The position numbers and the translations under genes are program-made. Shown here piece after piece: positions 1 through 14,662 of a stretch of DNA of 15,452 nt (positions are counted from its first letter, which is position 1; every line of letters begins with the position of its first letter). The notes below the pieces were generated by a model. That model made no database searches. It saw nothing but the letters and a program-made list of their open reading frames with translations, and was not told the DNA's origin. Source of the stretch: Deltaproteobacteria bacterium (GTDB lineage: Bacteria; Bdellovibrionota; JACOXK01; 2-02-FULL-40-11); contig JACPST010000089.1 of NCBI GenBank assembly GCA_016193165.1, forward strand, positions 1-15,452, in the 5' to 3' direction.

Positions 1-1
1 T

Positions 2-340
2 ATTCCTCCAGGATGCCCCAATACGGAAAAGACTCTCAGCTCTTTTCTTTCTTATGCGGATGTTTTTCTTCTGCAAAACCATGGAGTGCTTGCTGTTGGA
101 AAAGATTTAGCTCAGGCTTATTATCGATTAGAACTTGTTGAACATCTGGCCAAGATTGAATGGGTTGCCAAATCTTTAGGAGCGCCTCAGGCGCTGCCCC
201 AAAAAATAGTGGAAAAGCTTCTTGAAAAAAGAAAAAAAGCAGGACTGTCCCGTCCTTCTAAGTCCGAAAACGACATTCCTTCTTCTTTGGATCAGATTGT
301 GGCTGAGGAAGTAAACCGATTTTTAAGTCAAAATCGCTAA
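2..340 (+). CDS. Class II aldolase/adducin-family protein, C-terminal part (5' end outside window)
   Basis: The frame is open from the left edge to a TAA at 338-340, giving 112 residues of a longer protein; an internal GTG at 86 is not the start. It contains the family hallmark DVFLLQNHGVLAVGKDLAQAY (split here as DVFLLQNHGVL and AVGKDLAQAY); the His of NHG is one of the zinc ligands in L-fuculose-1-phosphate aldolase-type enzymes. These enzymes split or form ketose-1-phosphates to DHAP plus an aldehyde, or epimerise or dehydrate similar sugars; the substrate cannot be read from this fragment. After the domain come a helix, a polar linker (about residues 78-95 of the fragment, rich in Lys, Ser and Pro) and a terminal amphipathic helix, SLDQIVAEEVNRFLSQNR. 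That tail resembles C-terminal encapsulation peptides of microcompartment aldolases. Its last 18 bases overlap the end of hpt on the other strand. Family confident, specificity unknown. Confidence 0.85.
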   Translation: MPPGCPNTEKTLSSFLSYADVFLLQNHGVLAVGKDLAQAYYRLELVEHLAKIEWVAKSLGAPQALPQKIVEKLLEKRKKAGLSRPSKSENDIPSSLDQIVAEEVNRFLSQNR

Positions 341-844
341 TTCTTTGAGATTGCGATAGAGTTGAACCGCGTCAAGTCCATAGCCTACGACAAATTTTTT
401 GCCAATTTCAAATCCACAGTAATCAATTTGGACGTTTTGTTGAATACACTCTGGTTTTAAAAGAAGCGTGCAGAGCTTTAAAGAGCTGGGATTTCGGGAT
501 GAAAAATATTTTAAAAGATAGTCTACCGTAAGACCCGTATCAATGACATCTTCAATAATGAGGACATCTTTTCCTTCTAAGGAAATATCCACATCAAGTG
601 TGGTTTTGACAATCCCGGAGGAATGGGTGTTGTTGCCGTAGCTTTGAACCCCAAAAAATTCAACGGTGAGGTCCAAATCAATCGCGCGGATCAAATCGGC
701 ACAAAACATAAATGCCCCTTTTAAAACGCAAACAACGACTAAATCTTTTCCTTTGTAATCAGCAGTAATTTGTTTTCCAAGTTGTACAATTCGTTTTTGA
801 ATTTTTTCCTTTGAAAGAAGAGTTTTTAGTTTTTTTGTTTTCAT
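323..844 (-). CDS. hpt: Hypoxanthine(-guanine) phosphoribosyltransferase
   Basis: Makes IMP or GMP from hypoxanthine or guanine and PRPP in the cytoplasm (purine salvage). The 173 residues match the usual bacterial length of about 175-185. Visible motifs: LKGA at residues 41-44 (PRPP loop), the acidic PRPP-binding motif VLIIEDVIDTG at 94-104 with E98 and D99, K130 in LLLKPE (purine 6-oxo contact in the family), and FVVGYGLD at 151-158 followed by LYRNL. It starts at an ATG only 3 bp after the upp stop, so it is the last gene of the tdk-upp-hpt unit. Its 3' end overlaps the convergent class II aldolase gene by 18 bp, with no clear terminator. It fits the neighbouring PunA reaction, which releases hypoxanthine and guanine. 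Confidence 0.95.
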   Translation of the reverse strand: MKTKKLKTLLSKEKIQKRIVQLGKQITADYKGKDLVVVCVLKGAFMFCADLIRAIDLDLTVEFFGVQSYGNNTHSSGIVKTTLDVDISLEGKDVLIIEDVIDTGLTVDYLLKYFSSRNPSSLKLCTLLLKPECIQQNVQIDYCGFEIGKKFVVGYGLDAVQLYRNLKELAILT

Positions 845-847
845 GGT

Positions 848-1630
848 TTAAACAAAGGCATTATTTAAAATTTCACCTAATCCTCCTGCGCCGGGAACAA
901 TATATTGATAACGGTTAAGCCCGCGCTCTTGGTGCCAGTGCGTTCCAGGAATTGTTTTTAAAATTCTTTTGGAACTTAATCCCCGATCAAGCCGTAGTCC
1001 GTAAACAATAAGATCAGGGTGGTCTGTTTTTACCTTTTTAAGATATTCCGGTGTTACAATCAAGTGCAGGGCAATCCACTTTAAAGGTTTCCCGGAAATA
1101 CGACTTTTGTAAAGCTGTAGTGTCTCACAAATACTTCCTCCGGTAGCTCCCATCGGATCTGGAAAAAGGACAATCGCTTTATCCAGTCTCCCGCCAATTT
1201 TATAGCCGCTAATTTGACTTCCAATGACTTGGGATTGATCATCCACCGTGCGGTTAATATAAATGTGATCTTGTCGGACATATTTAGGTTTAAAAATATG
1301 GTTTAAGAATTCATAGCACAGTTGAGAAGGGACAATGCCTGCCCGCGCCAGATTTACGGTGATTACGCGTGTGTCAAAATCAATGAGCTTTTCTTTGAGA
1401 ATAGCTTCTTTATGGGTAGTGATCATGCGGGTTTTAATAGTGCATTTTTTCTGGGGAAACTCTAGTCCCACCACTCGAGCAATTAAGGCGTTATAAAGAA
1501 GTTTAATGAGATCGGTAATTAAGGGCTGATAGGTATCTTTAGAACAGAGAAGAGCTAAGAGCGATGACAAAAAAGAATCTGAGAGAATATGATAGTTTTG
1601 CCCGTAATGGTGTTTAACTTCTGACTGCAT
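848..1630 (-). CDS. upp: Uracil phosphoribosyltransferase, long form
   Basis: Uracil plus PRPP gives UMP (pyrimidine salvage, cytoplasm). The PRPP motif FPDPMGATGGS lies at residues 156-166 and corresponds to the canonical DPMLATGGS. The uracil-binding C-terminal signature appears as GLNRYQYIVPGAGGLGE at 237-253 in place of GYIVPGLGDAGDR. At 260 residues it is about 50 longer than the common bacterial enzyme of about 209. The extra length is mainly N-terminal, and the last segment is divergent, so specificity is less certain than family. It lies 10 bp after the tdk stop and 3 bp before hpt, and no strong Shine-Dalgarno sequence precedes its ATG, suggesting translational coupling with tdk. A possible alternative is a divergent phosphoribosyltransferase with a regulatory role, but its place in a base-salvage operon supports the enzyme call. 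Confidence 0.85.
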   Translation of the reverse strand: MQSEVKHHYGQNYHILSDSFLSSLLALLCSKDTYQPLITDLIKLLYNALIARVVGLEFPQKKCTIKTRMITTHKEAILKEKLIDFDTRVITVNLARAGIVPSQLCYEFLNHIFKPKYVRQDHIYINRTVDDQSQVIGSQISGYKIGGRLDKAIVLFPDPMGATGGSICETLQLYKSRISGKPLKWIALHLIVTPEYLKKVKTDHPDLIVYGLRLDRGLSSKRILKTIPGTHWHQERGLNRYQYIVPGAGGLGEILNNAFV

Positions 1631-1640
1631 AAGTAAAAAT

Positions 1641-2279
1641 TTATAAACGTGCTTCAGGTTGCCGAGATGTCTGGGCAGATCTGGGTGCCCGTTTTTCAGT
1701 TTTTTGTTTTATTCTTTCAGGCAACTGAGGATCAAAACAAAGCCGGCAGCGTGCTTCATAGGCTTCTTGAGCGCCTACTACTACGCGATCTCCTTCTGGG
1801 ATAATTCTTTGAGAGCGGCTGGCCGGATTTCCACAGACCACACAGATAGCATTATTTTTTGTAATATATTCAGCAACCGCTAAAAGTTGAGGAATAGGTT
1901 CAAATGGAATCCCTCTGTAATCTTGATCTAATCCTGCTACAATGACACGAAGACCCTGGTTGGCTAACTTTTGGCAGACATCTACTAAATCTTGGTTAAA
2001 GAATTGAGCTTCGTCTATTCCCACGACTTGAGTGTCTTTTTCAATGGAATCTAAAATTTCTTGGGCTGATCGAACCGCTTTGGCCAGGAGTTTTTGAGCG
2101 CTATGAGAGGCAATGTGATCGGCGGAATATCTAGAATCAATAATGGGTTTAAAAACTTGAACCTTTAATTTTGCAATTTGAGCTCTGCGCAAGCGACGAA
2201 TCAGCTCTTCTGTTTTTCCACTAAACATACTTCCGCAGACCACTTCGATCCAACCCATTTTTGCTTGAATAAAATTCAT
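1641..2279 (-). CDS. tdk: Thymidine kinase
   Basis: Phosphorylates thymidine (and deoxyuridine) with ATP to dTMP (dUMP). It is a type II TK: P-loop GSMFSGKT at residues 16-23, Walker B-like GIDEAQFF at 87-94 with catalytic E90, lasso-region Tyr, and two zinc Cys pairs, C146/C149 and C178/C181. The 212 residues include a disordered basic tail after about residue 190. The first ATG is supported by a strong AGGGAGG-type Shine-Dalgarno sequence (complement of 2285-2291). The internal Met8 would also be possible but has no comparable ribosome site. First gene of the tdk-upp-hpt salvage unit. It competes with DeoA for thymidine, so separate transcription of the salvage and catabolic units makes sense. 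Confidence 0.95.
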
Positions 2280-2309
2280 GAATTTGCCTCCCTTTGTTTT
2301 AGAGCCTAA

Positions 2310-2337
2310 GTATTAAATGGGTTTTAAAAAAAAGCAA
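2310..2337 (-). promoter_or_regulatory. Possible sigma-70-type promoter for tdk-upp-hpt
   Basis: On the minus strand TTGCTT (complement of 2332-2337) and TAATAC (complement of 2310-2315) are 16 bp apart. Transcription would begin near 2303, leaving a leader of about 25 nt that carries the strong tdk ribosome site. Both boxes are imperfect and the region is A/T-rich, so this is only a candidate. Confidence 0.35.
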
Positions 2338-2343
2338 AGAAAA

Positions 2344-2611
2344 TTAACACCTAAAAATTTCTTCAATAAAAAATTGAGTTTTAGGAGGAATAAGTTTTTT
2401 GGGATAATAGGATTCAATGATCGTGAATACTTCTTTTGCAGATTTTAGTTTGAGAAATTGAATCAGGAAGAGAACGTCCTCACGATTGTGAAATGAGAAA
2501 TTCTCAAGGAAGCTGTTGTCTGGGCAATGTGAAAGAAGCTGAAAATCAAGCGTATAAAAAATGTAAAAAATAATTGACCCTATACTTATGAAGGATTGAA
2601 ATCATTTTCAT
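2344..2611 (-). pseudogene. Unrecognised reading frame without a start; possible frameshifted gene remnant
   Basis: This stretch lies between tdk and the mgtC-like gene. On the minus strand a frame is open for 85 codons, from after a TGA at 2602-2604 to a TAA at 2344-2346. It has no ATG, GTG or TTG anywhere. The translation looks protein-like, not random: it contains FHNREDVLFLIQFLKLKSAK and later ESYYPKKLIPPKTQFFIEEI. An ATG at 2609-2611 in the neighbouring frame gives MKMISILHKYRVNYF before stopping. A single extra base in one of the T runs (complement of about 2557-2571) would join the two into a protein of about 88 residues. I recognise no family. Alternatives are a recently frameshifted gene, an assembly or sequencing error in a homopolymer, or chance. 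Apart from the tdk promoter region and this frame I see nothing else in the gap. Confidence 0.4.
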
Positions 2612-2631
2612 AAAGGTTTAAGCTGTTTTAT

Positions 2632-3102
2632 ATGGTGCAAGTTTGTTATCAATTTATCGTCAATGAAGGGTTTCAATTATTCATGGCCATTTTCTTAGGC
2701 GGCCTCATTGGATTAGAACGAGAGATGAAGGGAAAGCCTGCAGGCCTGAGAACAACGATACTGATCTGTTTAGGGGCTACACTTTTTATGATGCTCTCTG
2801 CAAAAGTCGCCATGATGGCTGGCTCTCAAGGAGCCGATCCTGCAAGAATTGCTTCTGGGATTGTCACAGGCATTGGATTTTTGGGGGCTGGGAGTATCTT
2901 CCACGGAGAAGGAATGGTTCAAGGACTGACCTCCGCAGCAACGATTTGGGTTGTGGGTGCTCTGGGATTGGCCATCGGGTGTGGACACTATGTTTTGGCT
3001 GTGGGTGTTACACTCATTCTTCTTTTGGTTTTAAGCGCTCTGGGAAGACTTGAATGCTACATTAGCGATAAATGTAAGACAAAAATTGCTGAAGAAAAGT
3101 AA
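2632..3102 (+). CDS. MgtC/SapB-family membrane protein
   Basis: A small inner-membrane protein of 156 residues with about five hydrophobic segments. Family motifs are clear: GGLIGLERE at residues 23-31, KPAGLRT at 35-41, a GIGFLGAG segment at about 81-88, and GLTSAATIWVVGA shortly after. The MgtC/SapB family covers MgtC itself (magnesium starvation and intramacrophage survival in pathogens, through an effect on the F-type ATP synthase) and many short housekeeping members of unknown job. This one has the short form without the C-terminal ACT-like domain of Salmonella MgtC. The ATG at 2632 gives the usual N-terminal length, but the only Shine-Dalgarno-like AAAGG (2612-2616) is rather far away. 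It stands alone, convergent with the next gene. Function beyond the family is not known. Confidence 0.85.
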   Translation: MVQVCYQFIVNEGFQLFMAIFLGGLIGLEREMKGKPAGLRTTILICLGATLFMMLSAKVAMMAGSQGADPARIASGIVTGIGFLGAGSIFHGEGMVQGLTSAATIWVVGALGLAIGCGHYVLAVGVTLILLLVLSALGRLECYISDKCKTKIAEEK

Positions 3103-3121
3103 AGTTCAGATTTTAAAATAC

Positions 3122-3505
3122 TTAATTCTTCCAGAAGTTAGCTACAAGCACTCCCGCAATTGCTAAAAGTCCACCCACGAGCGTTCCTCTATGGGGTAGC
3201 TCGTGAAACCATAAATAAACCATGGCTGGATAAGCAAGAGTTTGTGCAGCAATATAGGTTAAAAGCATGATCCACGCTGTTTGGGTGTGTTTATAGCCGT
3301 AGTAAAAAACTGCCCCAAATGTGAGATTGGCGATATTTAAAAGAGGGGTAGCAAGGCAAACAGCAGCAATCCAAAATATCCACACATTGGAAAATTCATA
3401 ATTGAAAAGGGATGGTTTGGGTGTTTGTTTTGTGACCCAGAACATGTAAGATTGAACGACAGAATGGGCTAAAAAGAAAAAGAAGAAATAAAAAATAAGT
3501 CTCAT
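3122..3505 (-). CDS. Small four-helix membrane protein, resembling half of a DMT/EamA transporter
   Basis: The 127 residues are mostly membrane-spanning, with hydrophobic segments at about 3-20, 42-66, 76-98 and 106-124. A very Phe-rich start (IFYFFFFFL) leads the first. The last helix, RGTLVGGLLAIAGVLVANFW, resembles the closing helix of EamA/DMT half-domains and small multidrug-resistance-like proteins; no residue proves transport. There is no Shine-Dalgarno sequence before the ATG. A good promoter lies 14 bp upstream and would place the transcript start within about 7 bases of the ATG. It is codirectional with cdd, 46 bp downstream of it, but probably also transcribed separately. Its end faces the mgtC-like gene with 19 bp between them. 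Confidence 0.6.
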   Translation of the reverse strand: MRLIFYFFFFFLAHSVVQSYMFWVTKQTPKPSLFNYEFSNVWIFWIAAVCLATPLLNIANLTFGAVFYYGYKHTQTAWIMLLTYIAAQTLAYPAMVYLWFHELPHRGTLVGGLLAIAGVLVANFWKN

Positions 3506-3518
3506 AAGTAGAATAATA

Positions 3519-3547
3519 ACTATAGCACGATCATTTTAGAGGCACAA
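3519..3547 (-). promoter_or_regulatory. Probable promoter for the small membrane protein at 3122-3505
   Basis: TTGTGC (complement of 3542-3547) and TATAGT (complement of 3519-3524) are spaced by exactly 17 bp on the minus strand. The expected transcript start at about 3511-3512 is only some 7 bases before the ATG at 3505, and no ribosome site is visible. The mRNA may therefore be nearly leaderless. Confidence 0.45.
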
Positions 3548-3551
3548 CAGG

Positions 3552-3956
3552 TTAGGAGCCTTGGCCATGACGCAAAGACTCTGGGCCAAAAGAATAAGGC
3601 AAAAGTTCTTCGAGATTTAAGACTTTAAATTTTTTGTCTGTATTGGCAATGACAATTTCCATTTTGGGATTAAATTCTCGGATGACTTGTCTGCAAATTC
3701 CACAAGGAGCGGAAAGGTCTTTGTTAGCCGTGACCACGACAAGCTTTACAATTTTTTTTACTCCTTCACTTAGAGCTTTATAAATGGCCACTCGCTCTGC
3801 ACACTCTCCCAAAAAAGCACAGTTTTCGACATTGCAGCCTGTGAAAAGTTGGCCTTGATCTGTTACTACAACAGCGCCCACCCGGTGCTCTGAATAAGGA
3901 GCATACGCATTTTTTCTCGCCTCTATGGCTTTTTCGATGAGAGAATGGTTATCCAA
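3552..3956 (-). CDS. cdd: Cytidine deaminase
   Basis: Hydrolyses cytidine and deoxycytidine to uridine and deoxyuridine. The 134 residues are typical of the short homotetrameric class. Visible: Ala-Pro-Tyr-Ser (APYS, 19-22), FTGCNVENCAF at 38-48, the catalytic CAE at 52-54 (zinc ligand C52, proton-shuttling E54) and PCGICRQ at 84-90 supplying the other two zinc cysteines C85 and C88. All key residues are present. It is the last gene of the long minus-strand nucleoside operon, 9 bp after the small secreted protein gene. It supplies (deoxy)uridine to DeoA, linking deoxycytidine to the same deoxyribose-1-phosphate pool. Confidence 0.95.
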   Translation of the reverse strand: MDNHSLIEKAIEARKNAYAPYSEHRVGAVVVTDQGQLFTGCNVENCAFLGECAERVAIYKALSEGVKKIVKLVVVTANKDLSAPCGICRQVIREFNPKMEIVIANTDKKFKVLNLEELLPYSFGPESLRHGQGS

Positions 3957-3965
3957 AGTTTTGAC

Positions 3966-4316
3966 TTATCGTTTTAGCCTGATCTTATATCTTGTAACAT
4001 AAGGAATTACACTTGTTGCGGTGTCTGTGAACTCAAAAGTAGCAGTGACACAATTTCTTAAATTGTTTCCAATGCTCATAGCTCGAGTTTCAAGTTCTGG
4101 TCCTGCTGGAATAAGTATTTTAAAAAAAGGATGTCTCTCCCCAGACGCTTGTGAAGTTCTAAACATAAGATCAACAGTACTACTTGGATCTGTAGAATAA
4201 CCAAATCGAACATCTAGCTCAGTAATTTGAGAACAATCTACTGTTCTTGTAGTGGAATGAGCATATATTGAAATAAGCATAAATCCGATAAGCACAACTA
4301 GTATTTTGTTTGTCAT
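3966..4316 (-). CDS. Small secreted hypothetical protein inside the nucleoside operon
   Basis: I do not recognise this 116-residue protein. It begins with a clear Sec signal peptide: Lys4 followed by a hydrophobic run ILVVLIGFMLISIYA, with cleavage likely around residues 19-22. The mature part of about 95 residues has two cysteines (C28 and C88) that could form a disulfide and alternates in a beta-sheet-like way, ending in a basic KIRLKR. Its ATG is preceded by a perfect AGGAGG (complement of 4323-4328) six bases upstream, one of the best ribosome sites in the window. It sits between punA and cdd, with 20 bp and 9 bp gaps, so it should be co-transcribed. A periplasmic or surface role linked to nucleoside uptake is only a guess from position. 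Confidence 0.7.
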   Translation of the reverse strand: MTNKILVVLIGFMLISIYAHSTTRTVDCSQITELDVRFGYSTDPSSTVDLMFRTSQASGERHPFFKILIPAGPELETRAMSIGNNLRNCVTATFEFTDTATSVIPYVTRYKIRLKR

Positions 4317-4336
4317 CGCTTTCCTCCTCTTTATAT

Positions 4337-5155
4337 TTAAGTGATCATTATAATGAATTCTTTGAGAAAAAGTCCAAACTTTTTAGAAGCGTTTTGTGTA
4401 ACCTTTAAGACTTCTTCGTGTCCTAGTTTGTGAGCACCGGTATAGGCGGCGTAGTTCGTGAGGCAAGAAATGCCACACACTTTCATTCCTTGGTGATTGG
4501 CCACAATGACTTCTGGAACAGTAGACATTCCTACAGCATCCGCTCCTAAGGTTTTAAGCATTTTAACTTCTGCGGGCGTTTCGTAACTTGGGCCTGGAAC
4601 AGCAACATAGATCCCTTCACGAAGCTGGACTTTGATTTTTTTGGCCACCGCTTTGGCTTTTTTTCGAAGAGCTTCATCATAAGCTTCCGTCAGATCTGGA
4701 AATCTTGGGCCCCACTCTTCCCAGTTTTTTCCCCGTAAAGGATTGGTGCCTAAGAGATTGATGTGGTCTTTAATAAGCATGAGCTCTCCGGCTTTATAAG
4801 AACGATTGATGCTTCCCGCGGCATTGGTGACAATGAGCGTTGTTGCGCCCAATTGTTTTAAAACTCGGACAGGAAATGTGACATCTTCTAAAGGATGTCC
4901 TTCGTAATAATGAATTCGCCCTTGAAGGACATAGACTGGAATGTTTCCCATTTTTCCAAAAACAAATTGGCCCTTGTGCCCCGAGACAGAAGACATTGGA
5001 AAATGAGGAATTTGCGAATAAGGGATTTCTTTTTTGTTTTGGAGGTAGTCAACAAACGCCCCTAATCCTGAACCTAGGATAATTCCTAAGGAAGCTTTTT
5101 GGCCAATTCTTTCGTTTAAAAGGTGGGAAGCTTCTAAAACGTAAGATGGATTCAT
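4337..5155 (-). CDS. punA: Purine-nucleoside phosphorylase (trimeric, 6-oxopurine type)
   Basis: Phosphorolysis of (deoxy)inosine and (deoxy)guanosine to base plus (deoxy)ribose-1-phosphate. The 272 residues fit the trimeric, mammalian-like class. Motifs in order: ILGSGLG at 26-32 (phosphate loop), SGHKG at 58-62, GRIHYYEGH at 79-87, NAAGSIN at 111-117, GPSYETPAEV at 188-197 with the purine-contacting Glu192, GADAVGMSTVPE at 204-215, and CLTNYAA at 231-237 with Asn234, the residue that favours 6-oxopurines. It lies 23 bp downstream of nupC and 20 bp upstream of the small secreted protein gene. Its products feed Hpt (bases) and DeoB/DeoC (deoxyribose). Confidence 0.95.
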   Translation of the reverse strand: MNPSYVLEASHLLNERIGQKASLGIILGSGLGAFVDYLQNKKEIPYSQIPHFPMSSVSGHKGQFVFGKMGNIPVYVLQGRIHYYEGHPLEDVTFPVRVLKQLGATTLIVTNAAGSINRSYKAGELMLIKDHINLLGTNPLRGKNWEEWGPRFPDLTEAYDEALRKKAKAVAKKIKVQLREGIYVAVPGPSYETPAEVKMLKTLGADAVGMSTVPEVIVANHQGMKVCGISCLTNYAAYTGAHKLGHEEVLKVTQNASKKFGLFLKEFIIMIT

Positions 5156-5178
5156 AAAATATTTTGGACGTTTTCTTC

Positions 5179-6423
5179 TTAAACGAGCATCCCTGCAAAG
5201 GTGGCTGTCATAAAGCAGGCGAGCGATCCAGCAATCATGGCTTTGAGCCCTAATCTTGCCAAATCTCCTCGTCGTTCAGGAGCCAATGCTCCAATTCCTC
5301 CCAACTGAATGGCAATGGATGAGAAATTTGAAAAACCACATAGAGCATAGATGGCAATAATTTGTGATCGGAGTGAAATTTCTCCGTTTTTCACCATATC
5401 AGCCAAGCTTAAATATCCCACAAATTCATTGATGACTGTTTTTTGGCCCAAAAGATTTCCAACCTTTACGCAGTCTTCCCACGGTGTTCCCATGATCCAT
5501 GCTAAAGGGGCAAATGACCATCCAAATAATTTTTCTAAGGTTAAATGTATGGGTTCAAATCCAAAGAAACTAATAAATTTATCTATTCCAACACCTATGG
5601 CAGAATTAAAAAGCGCAATCAGGGCAATAAAAGCTAAGAGCATGGCAGCAACGTTCACGGCCAGTCGTAATCCTTCCGATGCTCCACGAGAAGCGGCATC
5701 AATGACGTTCACATCCGTAATGGGAACCTTCACGGAACCTGCTCCTGCTGTTTCTGGAGTTTGGGTTTCTGGAAACATAATCTTTGACATAAGGATAGCC
5801 GCAGGTGCCGAAATAACGCTGGCTGCTAGCAAATGTCCCGCGCCTGTATCAAGGCCTGATTGTTTTAAAAAAACAGCGTAAGCGGCCATGACCGCGCCCG
5901 CAATGGTTGCAAATCCACCCGTCATCAAAGTCATGAGCTCGGAGTTGGTCATTTTGGAAACATAGGGGCGGATAAAAAGAGGAGCTTCGGTTTGTCCAAC
6001 AAATACATTTACGGCGCAAGATAGAGATTCTGCTCCTGAAATTCTCATTACTTTAGACATGATCCACGCCATGGCTCCAACCACTTTTTGTAAAATCCCA
6101 AAGTAATAGAGGACGGCTGTCAAAGAAGAAACAAAAATAACTGTGGGCAGTACTTGAAAAGCAAAGATGAATCCCACGCTGCCATCTAGTAATTTATCCC
6201 CAAATAAGAATGTAGCGCCTTTATTGGTGAAGGATAGAAGCGAGGAAATAGCATCTCCTGTCATTTGAAAAAAAGCATGGCCGATCCGAGTTTTTAAAAT
6301 ACAAAGTAGAAAGGTCAATTGAAGCAAAAGTCCCATCACCACAAGCCTTAAGTTAATGGCTTTTCGATTGTTGGATAGAGCATATCCCATGGCCATCAGG
6401 ATAAATAATCCCCAAAAACTCAC
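5179..6423 (-). CDS. nupC: Concentrative nucleoside transporter (CNT/NupC family)
   Basis: Inner-membrane nucleoside symporter. From the GTG at 6423 it has 414 residues, with many hydrophobic segments and the CNT signatures GQTEAPLFIRPYV (nucleoside and cation site), NEFVGYLSLA and SNFSSIAIQLGGIGALAPERR. I prefer this GTG. The protein then begins VVSFWGLFILMAMGYALSNN, as in other NupC proteins, and the GTG overlaps the TGA of an upstream 53-codon ORF (GTGA), a coupling arrangement. An ATG at 6513 would add a hydrophilic 30-residue leader (MDDLRKTFNFNDPS...) that is not typical of the family and overlaps that ORF. It imports the substrates for DeoA, PunA and Cdd encoded around it. Confidence 0.93.
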   Translation of the reverse strand: MSFWGLFILMAMGYALSNNRKAINLRLVVMGLLLQLTFLLCILKTRIGHAFFQMTGDAISSLLSFTNKGATFLFGDKLLDGSVGFIFAFQVLPTVIFVSSLTAVLYYFGILQKVVGAMAWIMSKVMRISGAESLSCAVNVFVGQTEAPLFIRPYVSKMTNSELMTLMTGGFATIAGAVMAAYAVFLKQSGLDTGAGHLLAASVISAPAAILMSKIMFPETQTPETAGAGSVKVPITDVNVIDAASRGASEGLRLAVNVAAMLLAFIALIALFNSAIGVGIDKFISFFGFEPIHLTLEKLFGWSFAPLAWIMGTPWEDCVKVGNLLGQKTVINEFVGYLSLADMVKNGEISLRSQIIAIYALCGFSNFSSIAIQLGGIGALAPERRGDLARLGLKAMIAGSLACFMTATFAGMLV

Positions 6424-6581
6424 AACCCTATCTCGTAGAACGAGGGTCGAGCTGCCATAAGAATGCCTAGGGGAAGGATCGTTAAAGTTAAAAGTTTTCC
6501 GAAGGTCATCCAATTGGAGACAGCCTTGTTGGTTTCAACGACTGTTCGTATCAAGGGAAGGCTTAAAACTCGTTCTTTCAT
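6420..6581 (-). CDS. Unrecognised 53-residue ORF coupled to nupC, one possible membrane helix
   Basis: This short frame fills the gap between deoA and nupC. It starts at an ATG (complement of 6579-6581), 18 bp after the deoA stop, behind a purine-rich but weak site (AAAGAGAT). It ends with a TGA that shares bases with the preferred GTG start of nupC. The product begins MKERVLSLPLIRTVVETNK and has a hydrophobic segment FGKLLTLTILPLGILMAARP that could span the membrane or act as a signal anchor. I recognise no family. It may be a real small membrane protein, a leader peptide controlling nupC translation, or an N-terminal piece split off by a frameshift. The overlap, and the absence of another explanation for this stretch, favour a translated ORF. 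Confidence 0.5.
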   Translation of the reverse strand: MKERVLSLPLIRTVVETNKAVSNWMTFGKLLTLTILPLGILMAARPSFYEIGL

Positions 6582-6599
6582 ATCTCTTTATTTCTCTTT

Positions 6600-7868
6600 C
6601 TATAGCTTCCCAAGGATTTTTTGAATGAGAGGGGTGAGATGGGGCTTCTTCGGAGCTATTTCAAAAGCTTGGGTTAGTTCTGCCATAGATGCGGCACACT
6701 TTTTCTCATCATTATAGCAAACTGTCAAGAGGGTATCGTTTTTTTGGACTTTAGCTCCCACCTTCTTATGAAGGATAAATCCCACAGAGGGATCAATAAC
6801 GTCGGTCACCGTTTCTCTGCCACACCCTAAAATGGAAGCTGCTTTTCCTATGTGCCAGGCATTGATTTTGGTTAAAAATCCTGCTTTGGGGGCCAAAAAT
6901 TCAAATGTATATTTGGCGGAAGGCAAATAGCTAAAAGATTCTATGACGCGCTCATCTCCGCCCTGCTGTTTAATCAATTCTTTAAATTTTTGGAGAGCTT
7001 GGCCAGTGCGAATCACTTTTTGGGACAAAGCGATCCCTTCTTTCACCGATCGGGAAATTCCGCCTAGAGTGAGCATGGCGCCACTGAGCGTTAAACTTAA
7101 ATCGATAAGATCTTTGGGACCCTGACCTTTGAGAACTTCTATAGTTTCTTCAATTTCTAAACTGTTTCCAATTTTATTGCCCAAGGGTTGGTTCATATCG
7201 GTGACCAGAGCGATTGTTTTTTTGCCGCAAGACTTCCCAATCTTCACAAGCCATTTGGCAAGTTCTATAGCATCTTTTAGTTTTTGCATGAAAGCTCCGC
7301 ACCCAAATTTTACATCGAGCACCAAGCTATCAATTCCTTCGGCTAATTTTTTACTCATGATTGAAGCAGCAATGAGAGGAATACATTCCACCGTCGCAGT
7401 CACATCTCGGAGCGCATACATTCTAGCATCCGCTGGAGCAATGTCTTTGGTTTGTCCCATCATGGCAAAATGGAGTGTTTTTAAATGATGCTGAAATTCT
7501 TCAAAAGATAAATTCATTTTAAATCCAGGGATGGATTCTAATTTATCAACGGTTCCTCCGGTGTGTCCCAGCCCGCGTCCCGAAATCATAGGTACAGCAA
7601 CGTCATAACAGGCAACAATGGGAGCAAGAATGAGAGATGTTTTATCGCCCACGCCACCGGTGGAGTGCTTATCGATCTTCTTAAAAGGGATGTCTGAAAA
7701 ATCGAAGGTTTTTCCCGAATGAAGCATGGCGTGAGTGAGATGGAGCGTTTCTTGAAAATTTAGGGGCTTAAAACAACAGGCCATCAAAAACGCAGACATT
7801 TGATAATCGGGAATGTCGTTATGGGTAAATCCTTTTACCAAAAAAGAAATCTCTTCTTTGGAAAGCAC
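6600..7868 (-). CDS. deoA: Thymidine (pyrimidine-nucleoside) phosphorylase; true start probably upstream at about 7916
   Basis: Phosphorolysis of thymidine and deoxyuridine to base and deoxyribose-1-phosphate. Motifs: NDIPDYQMSAFLMA near the N-terminus, DKHSTGGVGDKTSL (phosphate site), MISGRGLGHTGGTVDKLES, YALRDVTATVECIPLIAASI followed by MSKK (Arg, Ser and Lys of the pyrimidine site), and LDVKFGCGAFM. From the GTG at 7868 it has 422 residues but lacks the conserved first helix. In the same frame upstream, codons 7869-7916 encode IIRHLGALIQKKKEGC, which aligns with the usual family N-terminus (LIxKKRDG). That stretch has no ATG, GTG or TTG before an in-frame TAG. An ATT or ATC start at 7914-7916 or 7911-7913 would give about 438 residues, the family length, and overlap the end of deoB by up to 16 bp. 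Confidence 0.93.
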   Translation of the reverse strand: MLSKEEISFLVKGFTHNDIPDYQMSAFLMACCFKPLNFQETLHLTHAMLHSGKTFDFSDIPFKKIDKHSTGGVGDKTSLILAPIVACYDVAVPMISGRGLGHTGGTVDKLESIPGFKMNLSFEEFQHHLKTLHFAMMGQTKDIAPADARMYALRDVTATVECIPLIAASIMSKKLAEGIDSLVLDVKFGCGAFMQKLKDAIELAKWLVKIGKSCGKKTIALVTDMNQPLGNKIGNSLEIEETIEVLKGQGPKDLIDLSLTLSGAMLTLGGISRSVKEGIALSQKVIRTGQALQKFKELIKQQGGDERVIESFSYLPSAKYTFEFLAPKAGFLTKINAWHIGKAASILGCGRETVTDVIDPSVGFILHKKVGAKVQKNDTLLTVCYNDEKKCAASMAELTQAFEIAPKKPHLTPLIQKILGKL

Positions 7869-7900
7869 ACAGCCTTCTTTTTTCTTTTGGATAAGGGCAC

Positions 7901-9079
7901 CTAGGTGCCGGATAATTCTTTTAGAAAACTAGTTCCATGTCTTAGGGGAGAAAGATTAAAAATTTCTGCTACAGTTTGGCCAATATCTGAAAATGTTTTT
8001 CGAACGCCTAGGTTTTTGCTCTTAAACGCGGGGCTATAGGCCAAAAGGGGCGCATATTCTCGAGTGTGGTCTGTGCCAGGATGCGTGGGATCATTGCCAT
8101 GATCGGAAGTAATCAAAAGAAGCCCATCTAGGCCAATGGTTTTCATGAGCTCAGGGAGTTTTTGATCTAGTTCAATGAGGGCATTGGCAAATCCTGGCAC
8201 GTCGTTTCTGTGTCCATAGAGTTGGTCAAAATCAATGAGGTTTGTAAACACAAGTCCGCGTTTTAATTTTTTCATTTCAGTGCCCGATGTTAAAAGACCC
8301 TCTAAGTTAGATTTTGTTTTTAAAGAAGTCTCAATTCCCTGATGGTTAAAAATATCTGATATTTTTCCAACAGAGACCACAGGAACGTGTTTTTCTTTCA
8401 GAAAATCTAGGAGCATTTTTTCGGGAAGTTCAACCACATAATCTTTTCGGTTCGGGGACCGTTGAAAGTTTAAGGCAGAGTCTCCCACAAAAGGACGAGC
8501 AATAACGCGACCGATAGTATACTTATCACACAGACGCCGTGCAATTTTACAGATATGATAAAGTTCCTCTAAAGGAAAAACACTTTCATGACAGGCAATT
8601 TGAAAGACGGAGTCGGCAGAAGTATAGACAATAGGGTATTCGGTTTTAACATGCTCTTCCCCCAGTTCTTTTAAGATTTCCGTTCCAGACGCGGCTTTAT
8701 TTCCTAAGATTTTTCCAACACCTGTTTCTTGAATAAAAGCGTTGATGAGTTCTTTGGGAAAACCCTCCATAAAGACAGGGAAGGGTTCTTTCAAATGAAT
8801 GCCGGCCATTTCCCAATGACCCGTGGACGTATCTTTTCCCGGAGAGGCTTCGAGCTGTTTTCCATAGGAGCCTACGGTTTCTGTGGTTGAACTCACACCG
8901 GGGAGTGCATCGATTTTTCCGAGTCCTAATTTTTCGAGAGTAGGAAGCTTTAGACCTCCCATTTTTTCTGCAACATGTCTTAGGGTATGAGAGCCGGTAT
9001 CTCCATAGGAAGATGCATCTGGTAGGGCGCCAATTCCAACCCCATCTAGTACTAAAATTAGTACCCGGCTAATATCCAT
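7901..9079 (-). CDS. deoB: Phosphopentomutase
   Basis: Interconverts (deoxy)ribose-1-phosphate and -5-phosphate, the step between the phosphorylases and DeoC; alkaline-phosphatase superfamily, manganese-dependent. From the ATG at 9079 it has 392 residues, the usual length. It starts MDISRVLILVLDGVGIGALP with the metal-binding Asp, followed by GDTGSHTL and GKDTSTGHWE carrying the phosphorylated Thr region. The C-terminal metal motifs include ITSDHGNDPTHPGTDHTREY. This start is supported by AAGGGA (complement of 9087-9092) seven bases upstream and by similarity. A longer frame from 9139 would add 20 residues translated from inside deoC and is rejected. It overlaps deoC by 11 bp, indicating translational coupling. 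Confidence 0.96.
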   Translation of the reverse strand: MDISRVLILVLDGVGIGALPDASSYGDTGSHTLRHVAEKMGGLKLPTLEKLGLGKIDALPGVSSTTETVGSYGKQLEASPGKDTSTGHWEMAGIHLKEPFPVFMEGFPKELINAFIQETGVGKILGNKAASGTEILKELGEEHVKTEYPIVYTSADSVFQIACHESVFPLEELYHICKIARRLCDKYTIGRVIARPFVGDSALNFQRSPNRKDYVVELPEKMLLDFLKEKHVPVVSVGKISDIFNHQGIETSLKTKSNLEGLLTSGTEMKKLKRGLVFTNLIDFDQLYGHRNDVPGFANALIELDQKLPELMKTIGLDGLLLITSDHGNDPTHPGTDHTREYAPLLAYSPAFKSKNLGVRKTFSDIGQTVAEIFNLSPLRHGTSFLKELSGT

Positions 9080-9908
9080 GAATTTTTCCCTTGCCCGAGA
9101 CAATGGCAATGCCGTTGCTGGTGCCAATGCGATTGGCACCCGCGGAAATCATGGCCAAGGCGTCTTTGGTGGTTTTAATCCCTCCACTGGCCTTGACCCC
9201 CATATCTGGGCCAACGATTCGTCGCATGAGTTCTACATCTTTAACAGTTGCGCCGCCGGGCCCAAAACCCGTTGAAGTTTTGACAAAGGCAGCTCTAGAA
9301 ATTTTAGCCAGCACACAGGCAATAATTTTTTCTTCTTCGGTGAGCATCGCTGTTTCTAAAATAACTTTGACAGGATAAGGCTTTGAGGCCTCAACAACTT
9401 TAATGATGTCACTTGTGACCAAAACATAATCTCTGCTTTTTAAAGCGCCAATGTTCATCACCATATCAATTTCTTTGGCCCCACATCGTACAGCTTCTTG
9501 CGCTTCAAAGGCTTTGGAAGAAGTGGAAGCGGCACCCAAAGGAAATCCCACGACAGCAATGGGTTTAACTGAAGATCCTTCTAGAAGTTTAGCCACATAG
9601 GCAATGTTTGAGCTATTGACGCAAACCGTAGCAAAGTGAAACTCCAGTGCTTCTTTACAAAGCTTTTCGAGTTCTTTGGCTCCTGCTTCTGGTTTTAAAA
9701 GGGTGTGGTCAATAGTAGAGGCGAGGTTTAACCCCTCTTTTTTAGGGACATGTTCCGTAGAGCCTAATTTAGGATTGGACTTCACATAAGGTAGTATCGG
9801 ATTTTTGGTTGATAAACCTTTGGAAATATTTGGATTATCTCCTTTTAAGCCTTGAGCCAAAAGGGCTTCTTTTACTTTTTCTGTGACTTGTTCAATGAGG
9901 TGATCCAT
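9069..9908 (-). CDS. deoC: Deoxyribose-phosphate aldolase with an N-terminal extension
   Basis: Cleaves 2-deoxyribose-5-phosphate to acetaldehyde and glyceraldehyde-3-phosphate. The TIM-barrel domain runs from about residue 60: STIDHTLLKP, VCVNSSN, VVGFPLGA, KEIDMVMNIGALKS with D148, VKVILETAML, AAFVKTSTGFGPGGAT with Schiff-base K210, and GVKASGGIK with K239. All catalytic residues are present. The first 60 or so residues are extra compared with the usual enzyme of about 220 residues. Residues 1-20 (MDHLIEQVTEKVKEALLAQG) form an amphipathic helix with hydrophobics at 4, 5, 8, 12, 16 and 17, followed by a polar Pro/Gly/Lys linker. This is the layout of microcompartment encapsulation peptides. 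First gene of the operon, directly behind the promoter at 9978-10006. Enzyme identity is certain; the role of the extension is inferred. Confidence 0.96.
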   Translation of the reverse strand: MDHLIEQVTEKVKEALLAQGLKGDNPNISKGLSTKNPILPYVKSNPKLGSTEHVPKKEGLNLASTIDHTLLKPEAGAKELEKLCKEALEFHFATVCVNSSNIAYVAKLLEGSSVKPIAVVGFPLGAASTSSKAFEAQEAVRCGAKEIDMVMNIGALKSRDYVLVTSDIIKVVEASKPYPVKVILETAMLTEEEKIIACVLAKISRAAFVKTSTGFGPGGATVKDVELMRRIVGPDMGVKASGGIKTTKDALAMISAGANRIGTSNGIAIVSGKGKIHGY

Positions 9909-9925
9909 AACATAATCCTTGATCT

Positions 9926-9978
9926 AAAGTGTCTGACATTTTGGGACATTTTGGTGTCAGACACTTTGGTGTCAGACA
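9926..9978 (-). promoter_or_regulatory. Three TGTC(A/T)GACA palindromes between promoter and deoC start: possible operator array or 5' UTR hairpin
   Basis: The 9-bp palindrome occurs at 9930-9938, 9955-9963 and 9970-9978, with centre spacings of 25 and 15 bp. The first two copies also form a perfect 13-base inverted repeat, AAAGTGTCTGACA (9926-9938) and TGTCAGACACTTT (9955-9967), around a 16-base loop. The copy at 9970-9978 touches the -10 box and covers the expected transcript start of the deoC operon, an ideal site for a repressor. No regulator gene is seen in the window. Similar GTGTCAGACAC strings also occur as dispersed repeats in some genomes (recollection), so a mobile repeat is the main alternative. 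Confidence 0.5.
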
Positions 9979-10006
9979 TATAACACCTTGCTTTAAAAAC
10001 TGTCAA
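9978..10006 (-). promoter_or_regulatory. Strong sigma-70-type promoter of the deoC operon
   Basis: A perfect -35 box TTGACA (complement of 10001-10006) is followed after exactly 17 bp by TTATAT (complement of 9978-9983). The transcript would start near 9971 and carry a leader of about 60 nt containing the palindromic repeats. It is the best-matching promoter on this strand and precedes the first gene of the eight-gene minus-strand run. The divergent acyP gene begins 20 bp on the other side. Confidence 0.65.
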
Positions 10007-12574: not shown

Positions 12575-12844
12575 ATGCCTATTTACGAATATAGCTGTAA
12601 TAAATGTAAAAAAAGTTTTGAGATCTTTCAAAAGATTACGGAGAAACCGAGAAAAGTTTGTGAAAAGTGTGGGCACAGCGCTTTTCATCTCAAAGGAACA
12701 GGTTGGTATGCAACCGACTATGCAAAGCCGAAAAAAAAGGCAACATCCGCTGAATCCCCAACACAAGATCAAGGATGTGCGAAACCCGGTTGCAAAGCCA
12801 CGGCTTCAGAAGCCAAGAACTGTTCTTCCAGCGCAACAAGCTAA
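12575..12844 (+). CDS. FmdB-family putative regulatory zinc-ribbon protein
   Basis: An 89-residue protein beginning [16 protein letters not shown], the standard opening of the FmdB/CxxC_CxxC_SSSS family. The first knuckle is C8/C11 and the second is CEKC (about C29/C32), giving a four-cysteine zinc ribbon, followed by the usual GTGWYATDY segment and a low-complexity Lys/Ser/Ala tail. The tail carries three additional cysteines (CAKPGCKA and NCSS), which is unusual. Members are found next to many housekeeping genes and are described as putative regulators, but their function is not established. The ATG is fixed by the family N-terminus, although the best ribosome site (AAGGAG near 12551) is rather far away. 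It ends 48 bp before rng. Confidence 0.85.
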
Positions 12845-12892
12845 TCTCCAATAAAAGATCTCTCGTGAATTTTAGGAATTTAGGAAGGCATC

Positions 12893-14662
12893 ATGAGTAA
12901 TGAAATGATTATTAATGCTACTGATCAAGAATCTCGAGTGGCATTGGTAGAAAAAGGAACCGTCTCAGAGCTCTATATCGAGAGAATTAGGGACAAAGGC
13001 ATTGTTGGAAACGTGTATAAAGGAAAAGTTGTCCGTGTACTTCCAGGAATGCAAGCGGCCTTTGTAGACATTGGTTTAGAAAAAGCAGCGTTTTTATATG
13101 CGGGAGATGTCTATATTTCTGAAAAAACAGGACAGCTTTCCGCGGAACAACTCCATGAGATTGATGATTTAGAAGAAGGTCCGGAAGAAGACGCAGTTCC
13201 TGCTTCTCCTGAGGGATCTGAAGCAGAGCTTAGGGAGGAAGGGACAAAAACATCAGGGCCAGAAGCCTTAGAAAAAGAGCTTCCATCTTTCGACGAAGCT
13301 CTTCCTGGCGAAGCTCCCTCTGGTGCGGCGCTTTCTGTTTCAGAACAAATGCCGAAGGAAGGAGTTCCTGCTTCCCCTGCGCCTCAAAAAGAGTATCCTA
13401 GAGAACATAGAAGATTTCGAGTTTCGCGATATATGCCCCCGCCTAATATTGCTGATCTCCTTAAAGAGGGCCAAGAGATTTTAGTTCAAGTGACGAAAAA
13501 TCCCATCGGAACCAAAGGTGCTCGGTTAACCATGCATTTATCCATTCCAGGCAGAAATTTGGTTTTGATGCCTAGCTTTGGACATGTGGGAGTATCACGA
13601 CGTATTGGATCCGATAAAGAAAGACGACGTTTGAAAGACTTTATTCAAAGTGTTTGTCCTCCTGATGTAGGGGTGATCGTTCGGACGGCGTGTGAAGATA
13701 AAAAACCCAGGGTCATTAAAGCAGACTTAGATTACCTTTTAAAAATTTGGCGTGAAATCGAAAAAGATATGCTGCATGCGCCAGCGCCCTATTTACTCCA
13801 CGAAGAACTTGATATTGTCCTTCGAACGCTTCGAGACATGTTTATCGATGACATTGATCGCATTGTGGTGGATTCCAAAAAAGAACATAAGCAAATTCTT
13901 CGGTTTTTAGAAATCTTTAACCCTGCTTTTAAACGTGTTGTCAAATTTTATAAAGGACGAGAACCGATTTTTGATACTTATGGGATTGAAACAGAAATTA
14001 ATCGGGCGATGGGAAGACGCGTGTGGTTAAAATCCGGAGGCTATATTATTGTAGATCAAGCCGAAGCACTTACTGTTGTGGATGTGAATACCGGACGATA
14101 TGTTGGGAAGAAAAATTTTGAAGATACGATTTTAAAGATTAACTTAGAAGCGGCCCGAGAAATTGCCTATCAGTTGAGACTTCGAAATTGTGGAGGAATT
14201 ATTATTATTGATTTTATTGATATGGAAAGATCCTACCACAGAGAAAAGGTCTATCGGACCTTTGAAGAAGTCCTTCGAAAAGATCGGGCTAAGAACTCTA
14301 TCTTAAAAATTTCAGAATTAGGTTTGATTGAAATGACCCGTAAACGAACTCGAGAAAGTTTGATTCAAACCTTATGTGCTCCCTGTTTTTATTGCGAGGG
14401 GAAGGGATATTTAAAAAATAAACTCTCCATTTGTTATGAAATTTTTAGAGAACTTGCCAAATTTGAGGGAGATGTTGCAGCCAAAGAAATGCATCTTTTT
14501 GTACACCCAGAGATTGCAAAGACTCTAAAAGAGGAAGAGATGGAAGGGCTTTTGAAAATAGAAAAAATGGTCAATAAAAAGATAACCGTCGAGGCTGTCC
14601 CCGATTTTCATATTGAACAATTTGAAATTAAGAGCTGGGTTGAAGAAACAAAAACCGGTTGA
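12893..14662 (+). CDS. rng: Ribonuclease E/G family endoribonuclease
   Basis: Endonuclease for single-stranded A/U-rich RNA, acting in rRNA maturation and mRNA decay. The S1 RNA-binding domain starts at about residue 36 (GIVGNVYKGKVVRVLPGMQAA). It is interrupted at about 75-183 by an acidic, Pro/Glu/Ala-rich insertion and then resumes. The catalytic DNase-I-like domain shows VVDVNTGRYVGKK with metal ligand D397 and IIIIDFIDME with D440 and D443. The zinc-link is CAPCFYCEGKG with C498 and C501. At 589 residues it is RNase G-like in lacking a long C-terminal degradosome scaffold, with the extra length inside the S1 domain. AGGAAGG precedes the ATG. It lies upstream of rplU, a common arrangement, and its stop codon is part of the rplU promoter. 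Confidence 0.93.
   Translation: MSNEMIINATDQESRVALVEKGTVSELYIERIRDKGIVGNVYKGKVVRVLPGMQAAFVDIGLEKAAFLYAGDVYISEKTGQLSAEQLHEIDDLEEGPEEDAVPASPEGSEAELREEGTKTSGPEALEKELPSFDEALPGEAPSGAALSVSEQMPKEGVPASPAPQKEYPREHRRFRVSRYMPPPNIADLLKEGQEILVQVTKNPIGTKGARLTMHLSIPGRNLVLMPSFGHVGVSRRIGSDKERRRLKDFIQSVCPPDVGVIVRTACEDKKPRVIKADLDYLLKIWREIEKDMLHAPAPYLLHEELDIVLRTLRDMFIDDIDRIVVDSKKEHKQILRFLEIFNPAFKRVVKFYKGREPIFDTYGIETEINRAMGRRVWLKSGGYIIVDQAEALTVVDVNTGRYVGKKNFEDTILKINLEAAREIAYQLRLRNCGGIIIIDFIDMERSYHREKVYRTFEEVLRKDRAKNSILKISELGLIEMTRKRTRESLIQTLCAPCFYCEGKGYLKNKLSICYEIFRELAKFEGDVAAKEMHLFVHPEIAKTLKEEEMEGLLKIEKMVNKKITVEAVPDFHIEQFEIKSWVEETKTG

Follow-up and report, generated by a model that had tools for sequence, protein, structure and literature searches.

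Tagged aldolases and a separately encoded HO-type shell suggest a split-locus metabolosome for deoxynucleoside-derived sugar phosphates

Introduction

The bacterial microcompartment (BMC) shell of the Haliangium ochraceum (HO) type is the primary model of shell structure, and a 2021 study described its function as enigmatic (PMC8217296). As presented in that work, HO loci carry a BMC-P triplet and encode an aldehyde dehydrogenase (AldDh) together with the shell genes; DeoC proteins with encapsulation peptide (EP)-like extensions located away from HO loci were also noted there, with nucleic-acid catabolism as a suggested role. The word 'nucleoside' is absent from its main text, which does not describe a deoC-deoB-deoA-nupC-punA-cdd context. 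Sugar-phosphate-utilizing (SPU) BMC loci have DeoC and RpiB in common and likewise combine a DeoC-type aldolase with AldDh, and the degradation of DNA has been proposed for them (PMC4207490, PMC8217296). A third comparison is offered by the DHAP shunt for 5-deoxyribose disposal (drdK-drdI-drdA; PMC6079011), described in a paper whose main text lacks the term 'microcompartment'. DeoC-associated family 4 A-domain encapsulins also represent relatives of compartment proteins that are tied to DeoC, with a proposed use of nucleosides, but they are archaeal and derive from the unrelated HK97 fold (PMC8346489).

Here we describe a bacterial locus in which a DeoC with an EP-like extension is encoded within a nucleoside operon. 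The link to this operon and the co-occurrence tests for such DeoC proteins are the new elements of the analysis.

Results

An ordinary nucleoside operon with two tagged aldolases

The window, by which we mean the whole stretch of 15,452 nucleotides analyzed, is one contig (C66) of a genome of 219 contigs that is 72% complete. Gene identities were taken from the best profile scores against NCBIfam cut-offs together with Pfam domains, and these searches confirmed the placement of nine genes by an earlier note on this DNA. Eight are on the minus strand: hpt, encoding hypoxanthine phosphoribosyltransferase (323..844; TIGR01203, 193 bits versus a cut-off of 150); tdk, thymidine kinase (1641..2279; PF00265, 190 bits); cdd, cytidine deaminase (3552..3956; TIGR01354, 138 versus 114 bits); punA, purine-nucleoside phosphorylase (4337..5155; TIGR01700 (PNP-I), 352 versus 293 bits); nupC, a concentrative nucleoside transporter (5179..6513) that falls slightly below its NCBIfam cut-off (TIGR00804, 416 versus 442 bits) with all three Pfam domains present; deoA/pdp, pyrimidine-nucleoside phosphorylase (6600..7868; TIGR02644, 540 versus 409 bits); deoB, phosphopentomutase (7901..9139; TIGR01696, 492 versus 341 bits); and deoC, deoxyribose-phosphate aldolase (9072..9908), whose 279-residue product has an N-terminal extension and matches TIGR00126 over residues 62-270 (256 versus 117 bits). 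The ninth, a class II aldolase gene (PF00596; 2..340, plus strand), is represented by its C-terminal part. Base salvage had been attributed to Tdk, Upp and Hpt; the first and last of these stand, but the putative Upp (848..1630, minus strand) is a UPRTase-domain protein (PF14681, 48 versus 27 bits) for which a TIGR01091 score of 53 versus 208 bits leaves the label weak and Upp identity unproven. This gene content resembles that of ordinary deo operons, and comparable operons occur in shell-less relatives, so that the operon itself is ordinary and its special feature lies in the tags alone.

The first tag comprises DeoC residues 1-20 (9849..9908, minus strand), which AlphaFold2 predicts to form an encapsulation-type helix at positions 2-18 (pLDDT 72-76). 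It is followed by a linker of residues 21-60 (9729..9848, minus strand) that is predicted to be disordered at 23-58 (pLDDT <50) and varies in length among relatives, and then by the barrel; folding runs gave mutually consistent models. A strict version of the motif matches 27 of 4,200 shuffled extensions (0.6%). This protein is the sole DeoC match in the window genome, as is the case for the single match in each of five order-mates, and thus cleavage of deoxyribose-5-phosphate in these organisms would use the tagged enzyme.

The second tag belongs to the class II aldolase, whose gene is truncated where the contig begins; residues 1-90 are encoded at the end of another contig (C121), and about 41 residues are lost in the assembly gap. 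The last 19 residues (281..337, plus strand) carry a C-terminal motif of the encapsulation type, and structure prediction for an intact copy from the same genus places a helix at 216-230 with moderate confidence. Of 1,750 homologues found, 120 were listed, and 72 of these carry the motif, versus 0.3% of shuffles. Two aldolases with encapsulation-like helices had been proposed from the window, and the predicted helices, motif frequencies above shuffle rates, and patterns of conservation and co-occurrence agree with that proposal. The hydrophobic moment of a single peptide was rejected as evidence for a tag, since shuffled versions of the two peptides, each taken alone, reach the observed value in 14% and 17% of cases; support for the tags comes from conservation and co-occurrence, not from any single peptide.

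HO-type shell genes on separate contigs

A deoxynucleoside-catabolizing metabolosome had been hypothesized for this locus, with the absence of shell genes from the genome named as grounds for abandoning it. The genome does contain them: there are four PF00936 matches, three of which exceed the cut-off, and three PF03319 matches, all above the cut-off, that constitute a BMC-P triplet. They reside on two contigs (C206 and C23) distinct from that bearing DeoC, one carrying BMC-T, BMC-H, BMC-P, and an EutE-like aldehyde dehydrogenase, and the other carrying the end of a dehydrogenase, BMC-T, and two BMC-P genes. The contig ends hold residues of one common dehydrogenase, which places the shell genes in order with the dehydrogenase between BMC-P and BMC-T. 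The resulting three BMC-P, one BMC-H, and two BMC-T genes are a full shell set, and the whole seven-gene order is found on a single contig in four genomes of the same family (G001, G002, G003, and G005). The G003 copy of the dehydrogenase scores 685 bits against a cut-off of 403 (PRK15398), and the EutE-like enzyme likewise has an N-terminal helix. PTAC (PF06130) was not found by profile search in the 72%-complete window genome.

The top natural solved relative of BMC-H (G003 copy, identical to that of the window genome) is HO-5815 (1.5e-42); only an engineered fusion scores better. For the double-disc BMC-T (G001 copy), HO-5816 is among the two best (1.4e-82), and the other BMC-T is nearest to the PduT type. 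The shell therefore shares with HO BMCs its BMC-P triplet, its AldDh encoded with shell genes, and a similar BMC-T, but the class II aldolase gene of the window lies beside base-salvage genes, converging on hpt, and away from the shell contigs. An SPU-type BMC is rejected: DeoC is encoded outside the shell locus, and the only RpiB match (PF02502) is on yet another contig (C65), so that the shell is of the HO and not the SPU type. RpiB and shell genes are on different contigs in all 13 of the 22 shell-bearing genomes for which a place for RpiB is listed. As shell and nucleoside genes are on separate contigs, any co-regulation of the two would be hypothetical.

Both tags follow the shell among relatives

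Synteny in shell-positive relatives had been put forward as a check on the hypothesis, and its outcome favors the hypothesis. In seven relatives of family f9, DeoC and the class II aldolase are encoded together within a shell locus that reads BMC-H, BMC-P, AldDh, an RnfC-like gene, BMC-T, two BMC-P, DeoC, BMC-T, and class II aldolase; an eighth relative has the two aldolases at the two ends of its shell locus. The RnfC-like gene gave no tblastn match in f1 shell loci. DeoC is found within the shell locus in the f9 relatives and in G089.

Among the genomes read, the strict N-terminal DeoC motif occurs in 16 of 19 with a shell versus 3 of 67 without. In the phylum sample, the BMC-type class II aldolase, defined by at least 40% identity and E<=1e-44, is present in 18 of 22 shell-bearing versus 1 of 268 shell-less genomes, the latter genome being 61% complete. 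There are exceptions in both directions. DeoC lies inside the shell locus and has no motif in two shell-bearing genomes (G250 and G260), the aldolase has no C-terminal helix in four others (G089, G115, G174, and G188), as is also true of a 36%-identical match in G023, and the shell locus of G076 contains neither protein. Conversely, no shell match was obtained in four f8 genomes whose DeoC bears the helix, a call that was made by eye for one of them.

The split arrangement recurs elsewhere. When the gene content of loci was assessed by tblastn, 19 loci of other genomes (with L089, L105, and L113 left out of this set) encode a tagged DeoC with no shell gene within the locus DNA examined. Nucleoside genes are nearby in 16 of these, and shell genes exist elsewhere in the genome for 17, with 13 of those 17 showing the full seven-gene order of the window genome; L053 and L084 have a tagged DeoC and no shell match in the genome. 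With a looser motif pattern, shell genes are present in 15 of 17 tagged versus 9 of 30 untagged genomes (Fisher p 2e-4, which like all our Fisher values ignores shared ancestry). After visual inspection of three loci (L048, L109, and L056, the last having its tag cut by a contig end), the counts are 18 of 20 versus 6 of 27. Two BMC-P genes combined with the placement of the aldolase, used as an HO-locus criterion, were found in 8 of 20 fetched loci; the window genome has two BMC-P genes in its main locus and the aldolase on another contig.

The earlier interpretation is supported, with corrections: across the phylum sample the shell is accompanied by the aldolase and by the extension on DeoC, and the nucleoside operon is ordinary, similar ones occurring without a shell.

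Discussion

These observations make it quite probable that the window genome encodes a split-locus HO-type metabolosome that converts deoxynucleoside-derived deoxyribose-5-phosphate to acetaldehyde and acetyl-CoA. Nucleosides would enter via NupC, deoxyribose-1-phosphate would be released through the activities of DeoA/Pdp, PunA, and Cdd, and DeoB would form the 5-phosphate for cleavage by encapsulated DeoC. Flux toward these products would be drawn by the EutE-like dehydrogenase, which may pull aldol cleavage by oxidizing acetaldehyde to acetyl-CoA while the aldehyde is contained. The class II aldolase would enter by its C-terminal helix and bring a second sugar phosphate to the same lumen.

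One tentative candidate for this second activity, which we regard as possible but less likely than not, is a 5-deoxyribulose-1-phosphate aldolase acting on sugars derived from 5'-deoxyadenosine and related 5'-deoxynucleosides and yielding the same aldehyde as DeoC. The enzyme is related to 6btd (E 8.6e-21), which we take to be DrdA, and is equally close to fuculose-phosphate aldolases; sequence scores do not separate the candidate substrates. A further likeness to the DHAP shunt is that the corresponding operons of two relatives include a gene of the 5'-deoxyadenosine deaminase type, namely one in G004 (NF005557, 592 bits versus a cut-off of 522) and a 74%-identical counterpart in G001; a 45%-identical counterpart belongs to an operon from Myxococcales that also encodes a tagged DeoC. 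Neither the window nor G003 shows the gene at this position. Of the DHAP shunt enzymes, no 5-deoxyribose/methylthioribose-1-phosphate isomerase (PF01008) was found in the incomplete (72%) window genome. This family is present in all five order-mates and in 161 of 290 phylum genomes, and was rejected as a shunt marker because it is too widespread. Should the assignment hold, the HO-type compartment would act as an acetaldehyde organelle for deoxy-nucleosides in general, with roles in DNA scavenging as well as in the disposal of radical-SAM by-products.

An alternative is that the shell serves another substrate, such as a 6-deoxyhexose phosphate cleaved by the class II aldolase, with DeoC as minor cargo and the nucleoside supply a historical accident. 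This aldolase tracks the shell no less tightly than the DeoC tag does, L-fuculose-phosphate aldolases are its closest relatives of solved structure, and ACI loci are described as having a class II aldolase with a C-terminal EP, with the same family also occurring in PVM and GRM5 (PMC8217296). We nevertheless consider this improbable, given that the sole DeoC in these genomes is the tagged enzyme, that the dehydrogenase is EutE-like, and that no fucose or rhamnose gene was recognized among the profiled window proteins. It is more improbable still that the tag drives aldolase clustering or condensation with no closed shell, the shell not being co-expressed; condensation driven by encapsulation peptides is the subject of published work (PMC12339742), and in this genome the cargo genes are separate from those of the shell, but the full shell set, in an order conserved in distant genomes, argues otherwise. 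Ordinary cytosolic salvage with two incidental helices, already disfavored and very unlikely, would fit the deo-like gene content and unremarkable hydrophobic moments, but not a genome with shell genes, co-occurrence of both tagged proteins with the shell, or their joint encoding within it in seven relatives.

On the metabolosome reading, a tagged, single-copy DeoC within a nucleoside operon names thymidine and other deoxynucleosides as candidate shell substrates, and would tie DNA-sugar breakdown to an organelle whose structure has been studied well but whose function is uncertain. A further implication would be that a shell can recognize, by its tag, cargo whose gene lies at a distance, in which case locus-based surveys may undercount cargo. 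As to the sequence signals in the window, promoter-like sites were uninformative (24 found versus 18.9 expected), and 22 terminator-like sites were found versus 12.2 expected.

Shell genes elsewhere in the genome

Profile searches of the window's genome (219 contigs, 1.29 Mb, 71.6% complete, with the window spanning 1-15452 of contig C66) revealed the bacterial microcompartment (BMC) shell genes on which the earlier note's proposal of a deoxynucleoside-catabolising metabolosome hinges, with four matches to PF00936 (BMC-H, BMC-T; three above the cut-off) and three to PF03319 (BMC-P), on contigs C206 and C23. The gene order on C206 is BMC-T (209 aa), BMC-H, BMC-P, aldehyde dehydrogenase, and that on C23 is dehydrogenase end, BMC-T (184 aa), BMC-P, BMC-P. 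Because the contig ends have dehydrogenase residues in common, the two very probably constitute one operon; the identical seven-gene order occurs on a single contig in four genomes of the same family (G001, G002, G003, G005). Neither DeoC nor class II aldolase is among the seven shell-operon genes of the window's genome. The dehydrogenase, judged from the intact G003 copy, is EutE-like (PRK15398, 685 versus 403 bits), with 5jfl as its nearest solved structure, and that of the window's genome starts with a helix-like stretch of its own.

Aldol cleavages of DeoC's class favour condensation, equilibrium constants of ~1e-4 being quoted in PMC6079011. Because of this equilibrium, the coupling of DeoC with an acetaldehyde-consuming dehydrogenase inside a confined space would be sensible. 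No PTAC gene (PF06130) was found in the window's genome at its 71.6% completeness. DNA degradation has been proposed for the SPU type of BMC (PMC8217296, PMC4207490), and EP-like DeoC away from HO loci has already been noted (PMC8217296). Among the papers listed by a literature search that covered few subscription journals and no bioRxiv preprints, none describes EP-tagged DeoC in a nucleoside operon, judging by titles and abstract openings.

Encapsulation-type helices and shell genes across the phylum

The structural model of DeoC comprises a helix (residues 2-18), a linker (23-58, pLDDT below 50) and then a confident barrel. For the class II aldolase, an intact copy from the window's genus was modelled; its C-terminus forms a helix (216-230), predicted with moderate confidence. 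Among the 290 genomes of a phylum sample, PF00936 is found in 22 and DeoC in 265. The start of DeoC was read in all but three of the 22 genomes with PF00936 (G188, where it is cut, G190 and G076), leaving 19 shell-bearing genomes in the count. The strict DeoC motif is present in 16 of these 19, versus 3 of 67 shell-less genomes hand-picked among the better-scoring matches listed, 22 of which belong to family f8 (Fisher p 9e-12, ancestry ignored). Reading by eye adds G003 to the shell-bearing genomes (17) and G139 to the shell-less ones (4), G133 being similar. Two genomes, G250 and G260, have a DeoC within the shell locus that is without the motif.

All shell-less genomes with the motif fall in f8, the strict count outside this family being 0 of 45. 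The f8 genomes with an encapsulation-type DeoC N-terminus and no PF00936 match are G061, G121, G168 and, by eye, G139. As f8 also includes shell-bearing genomes, shell loss or a missed assembly is possible; another use of the helix is a possible alternative. G004, a 61%-complete genome of the window's genus, carries the tag but yielded no shell match; it is kept out of the motif count.

The BMC-type class II aldolase, defined by at least 40% identity and E up to 1e-44, was detected in 18 of the 22 shell-bearing genomes versus 1 of 268 others, the sole exception being G004. The remaining four shell-bearing genomes have short aldolase pieces at 38-45% (G199, G190), a match at 36% (G023) or none (G076). 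Read by eye, the C-terminal helix is found in 14 of these 18 genomes; it is missing from the BMC-type aldolases of G115, G174, G188 and G089, and likewise from the weaker match of G023. The C-terminal motif occurs in 72 of the 120 listed homologues, versus 0.3% of shuffles. In shell-associated aldolases without the helix, at loci L195 (G089), L191, L192 and L196 (family f8), a short 'LxLPxDxxR'-type end replaces it.

In many shell-locus relatives (L159 at 12661-13413 and further f9 aldolases; P0018 and further members of A2), the 'NHG' motif of the window aldolase is 'GNG'. A His that serves as a metal ligand in FucA is thereby replaced, and activity or metal may differ.

Locus architecture in relatives

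In seven f9 relatives (G125, G163, G200, G209, G250, G260, G262), a single locus unites shell genes, dehydrogenase, RnfC-like protein, DeoC, BMC-T and class II aldolase, followed by triosephosphate isomerase in five and a second aldolase-like gene in two. In G089 (f20), the shell genes are flanked by DeoC at one end and aldolase at the other. In G199 and in those genomes of f1, f2, f5, f8 and f28 that were read, DeoC comes first, followed by homologues of deoB, deoA, nupC, punA and cdd; some of these gene sets are incomplete, and a number of them are truncated at a contig end.

Among shell-less relatives, deoC accompanies deoA, punA and cdd in G100, G061 and G109 (with deoB in two of the three) and deoB in G031; nupC had no match in these four deoC loci. 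The DeoC motif is absent from G100, G109 and G031 and present in G061. Since shell-less relatives have similar deoC operons, mostly without the motif, the operon is ordinary in kind, and it is the tag that tracks the shell. Clostridial-type loci (L057, L067, L076, L085, L086, L088) contain shell genes, TIM and two DeoC homologues (~31% and 57% identity).

Tagged DeoC in other genomes

A second sample consisted of the best 80 of 568 DeoC loci from a scan of genome contigs; L035, L036 and L037 (G004, G001 and G174) were excluded, and other overlap with the phylum sample may remain. Nineteen loci, 17 by pattern and L048 and L109 by eye, have a tagged DeoC and no shell gene in the surrounding sequence (tblastn). 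A deoA, deoB, nupC, punA or cdd homologue lies near the tagged DeoC in 16 of the 19 (tblastn), and not one of these five genes was found in any of 21 tagged-DeoC loci with shell genes nearby, sequence lengths varying among loci.

PF00936 searches of 50 of the 80 genomes located shell genes in 17 of the 19 tagged-locus genomes; matches above the cut-off occur in 7 of 28 genomes scored untagged. L056, scored untagged, turned out to break off at its contig end inside tag-like sequence. Twenty shell loci were compared, 17 from the tagged-locus genomes together with L089, L105 and L113. The full shell order of the window's genome recurs in 14 of the 20 (13 of the 17); five others have a partial order, at least two being cut by contig ends, and L296 has a different one. 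Class II aldolase is also present in eight of the 14 full-order loci and in L296. The 19 loci carry record titles of Deltaproteobacteria, Myxococcota/Myxococcales and unplaced proteobacteria, one title being odd. L068, whose record is labelled a Klebsiella pneumoniae MAG, has a tagged DeoC resembling those of deltaproteobacterial records, and this label looks wrong.

Genes and sites of the window

Profile searches uphold hpt, tdk, cdd, punA, nupC, deoA, deoB and deoC from the earlier gene assignments; the Upp label is weak, as the UPRTase-domain gene scores well under the true-Upp cut-off. Only the C-terminal part of the class II aldolase, likewise upheld by profile, lies in the window, where the contig start cuts the gene; contig C121 carries the first 90 residues. 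An MgtC-family gene (2632-3102) sits within the base-salvage part; G004 and G001 instead have a 5'-deoxyadenosine deaminase-type gene after cdd, and such a gene lies within tagged-DeoC nucleoside operons at L146 (15690-16982), L145 (16618-17910) and L043. The exact sequence TGTCTGACACC is absent upstream of deoC in all relatives' loci examined. Just upstream of deoC in the window, at 9929-9979, are three palindromic GTGTCTGACAC-like sites (four strand matches with at most one mismatch, versus 0.07 expected), which from their sequence could represent an operator or a local repeat.
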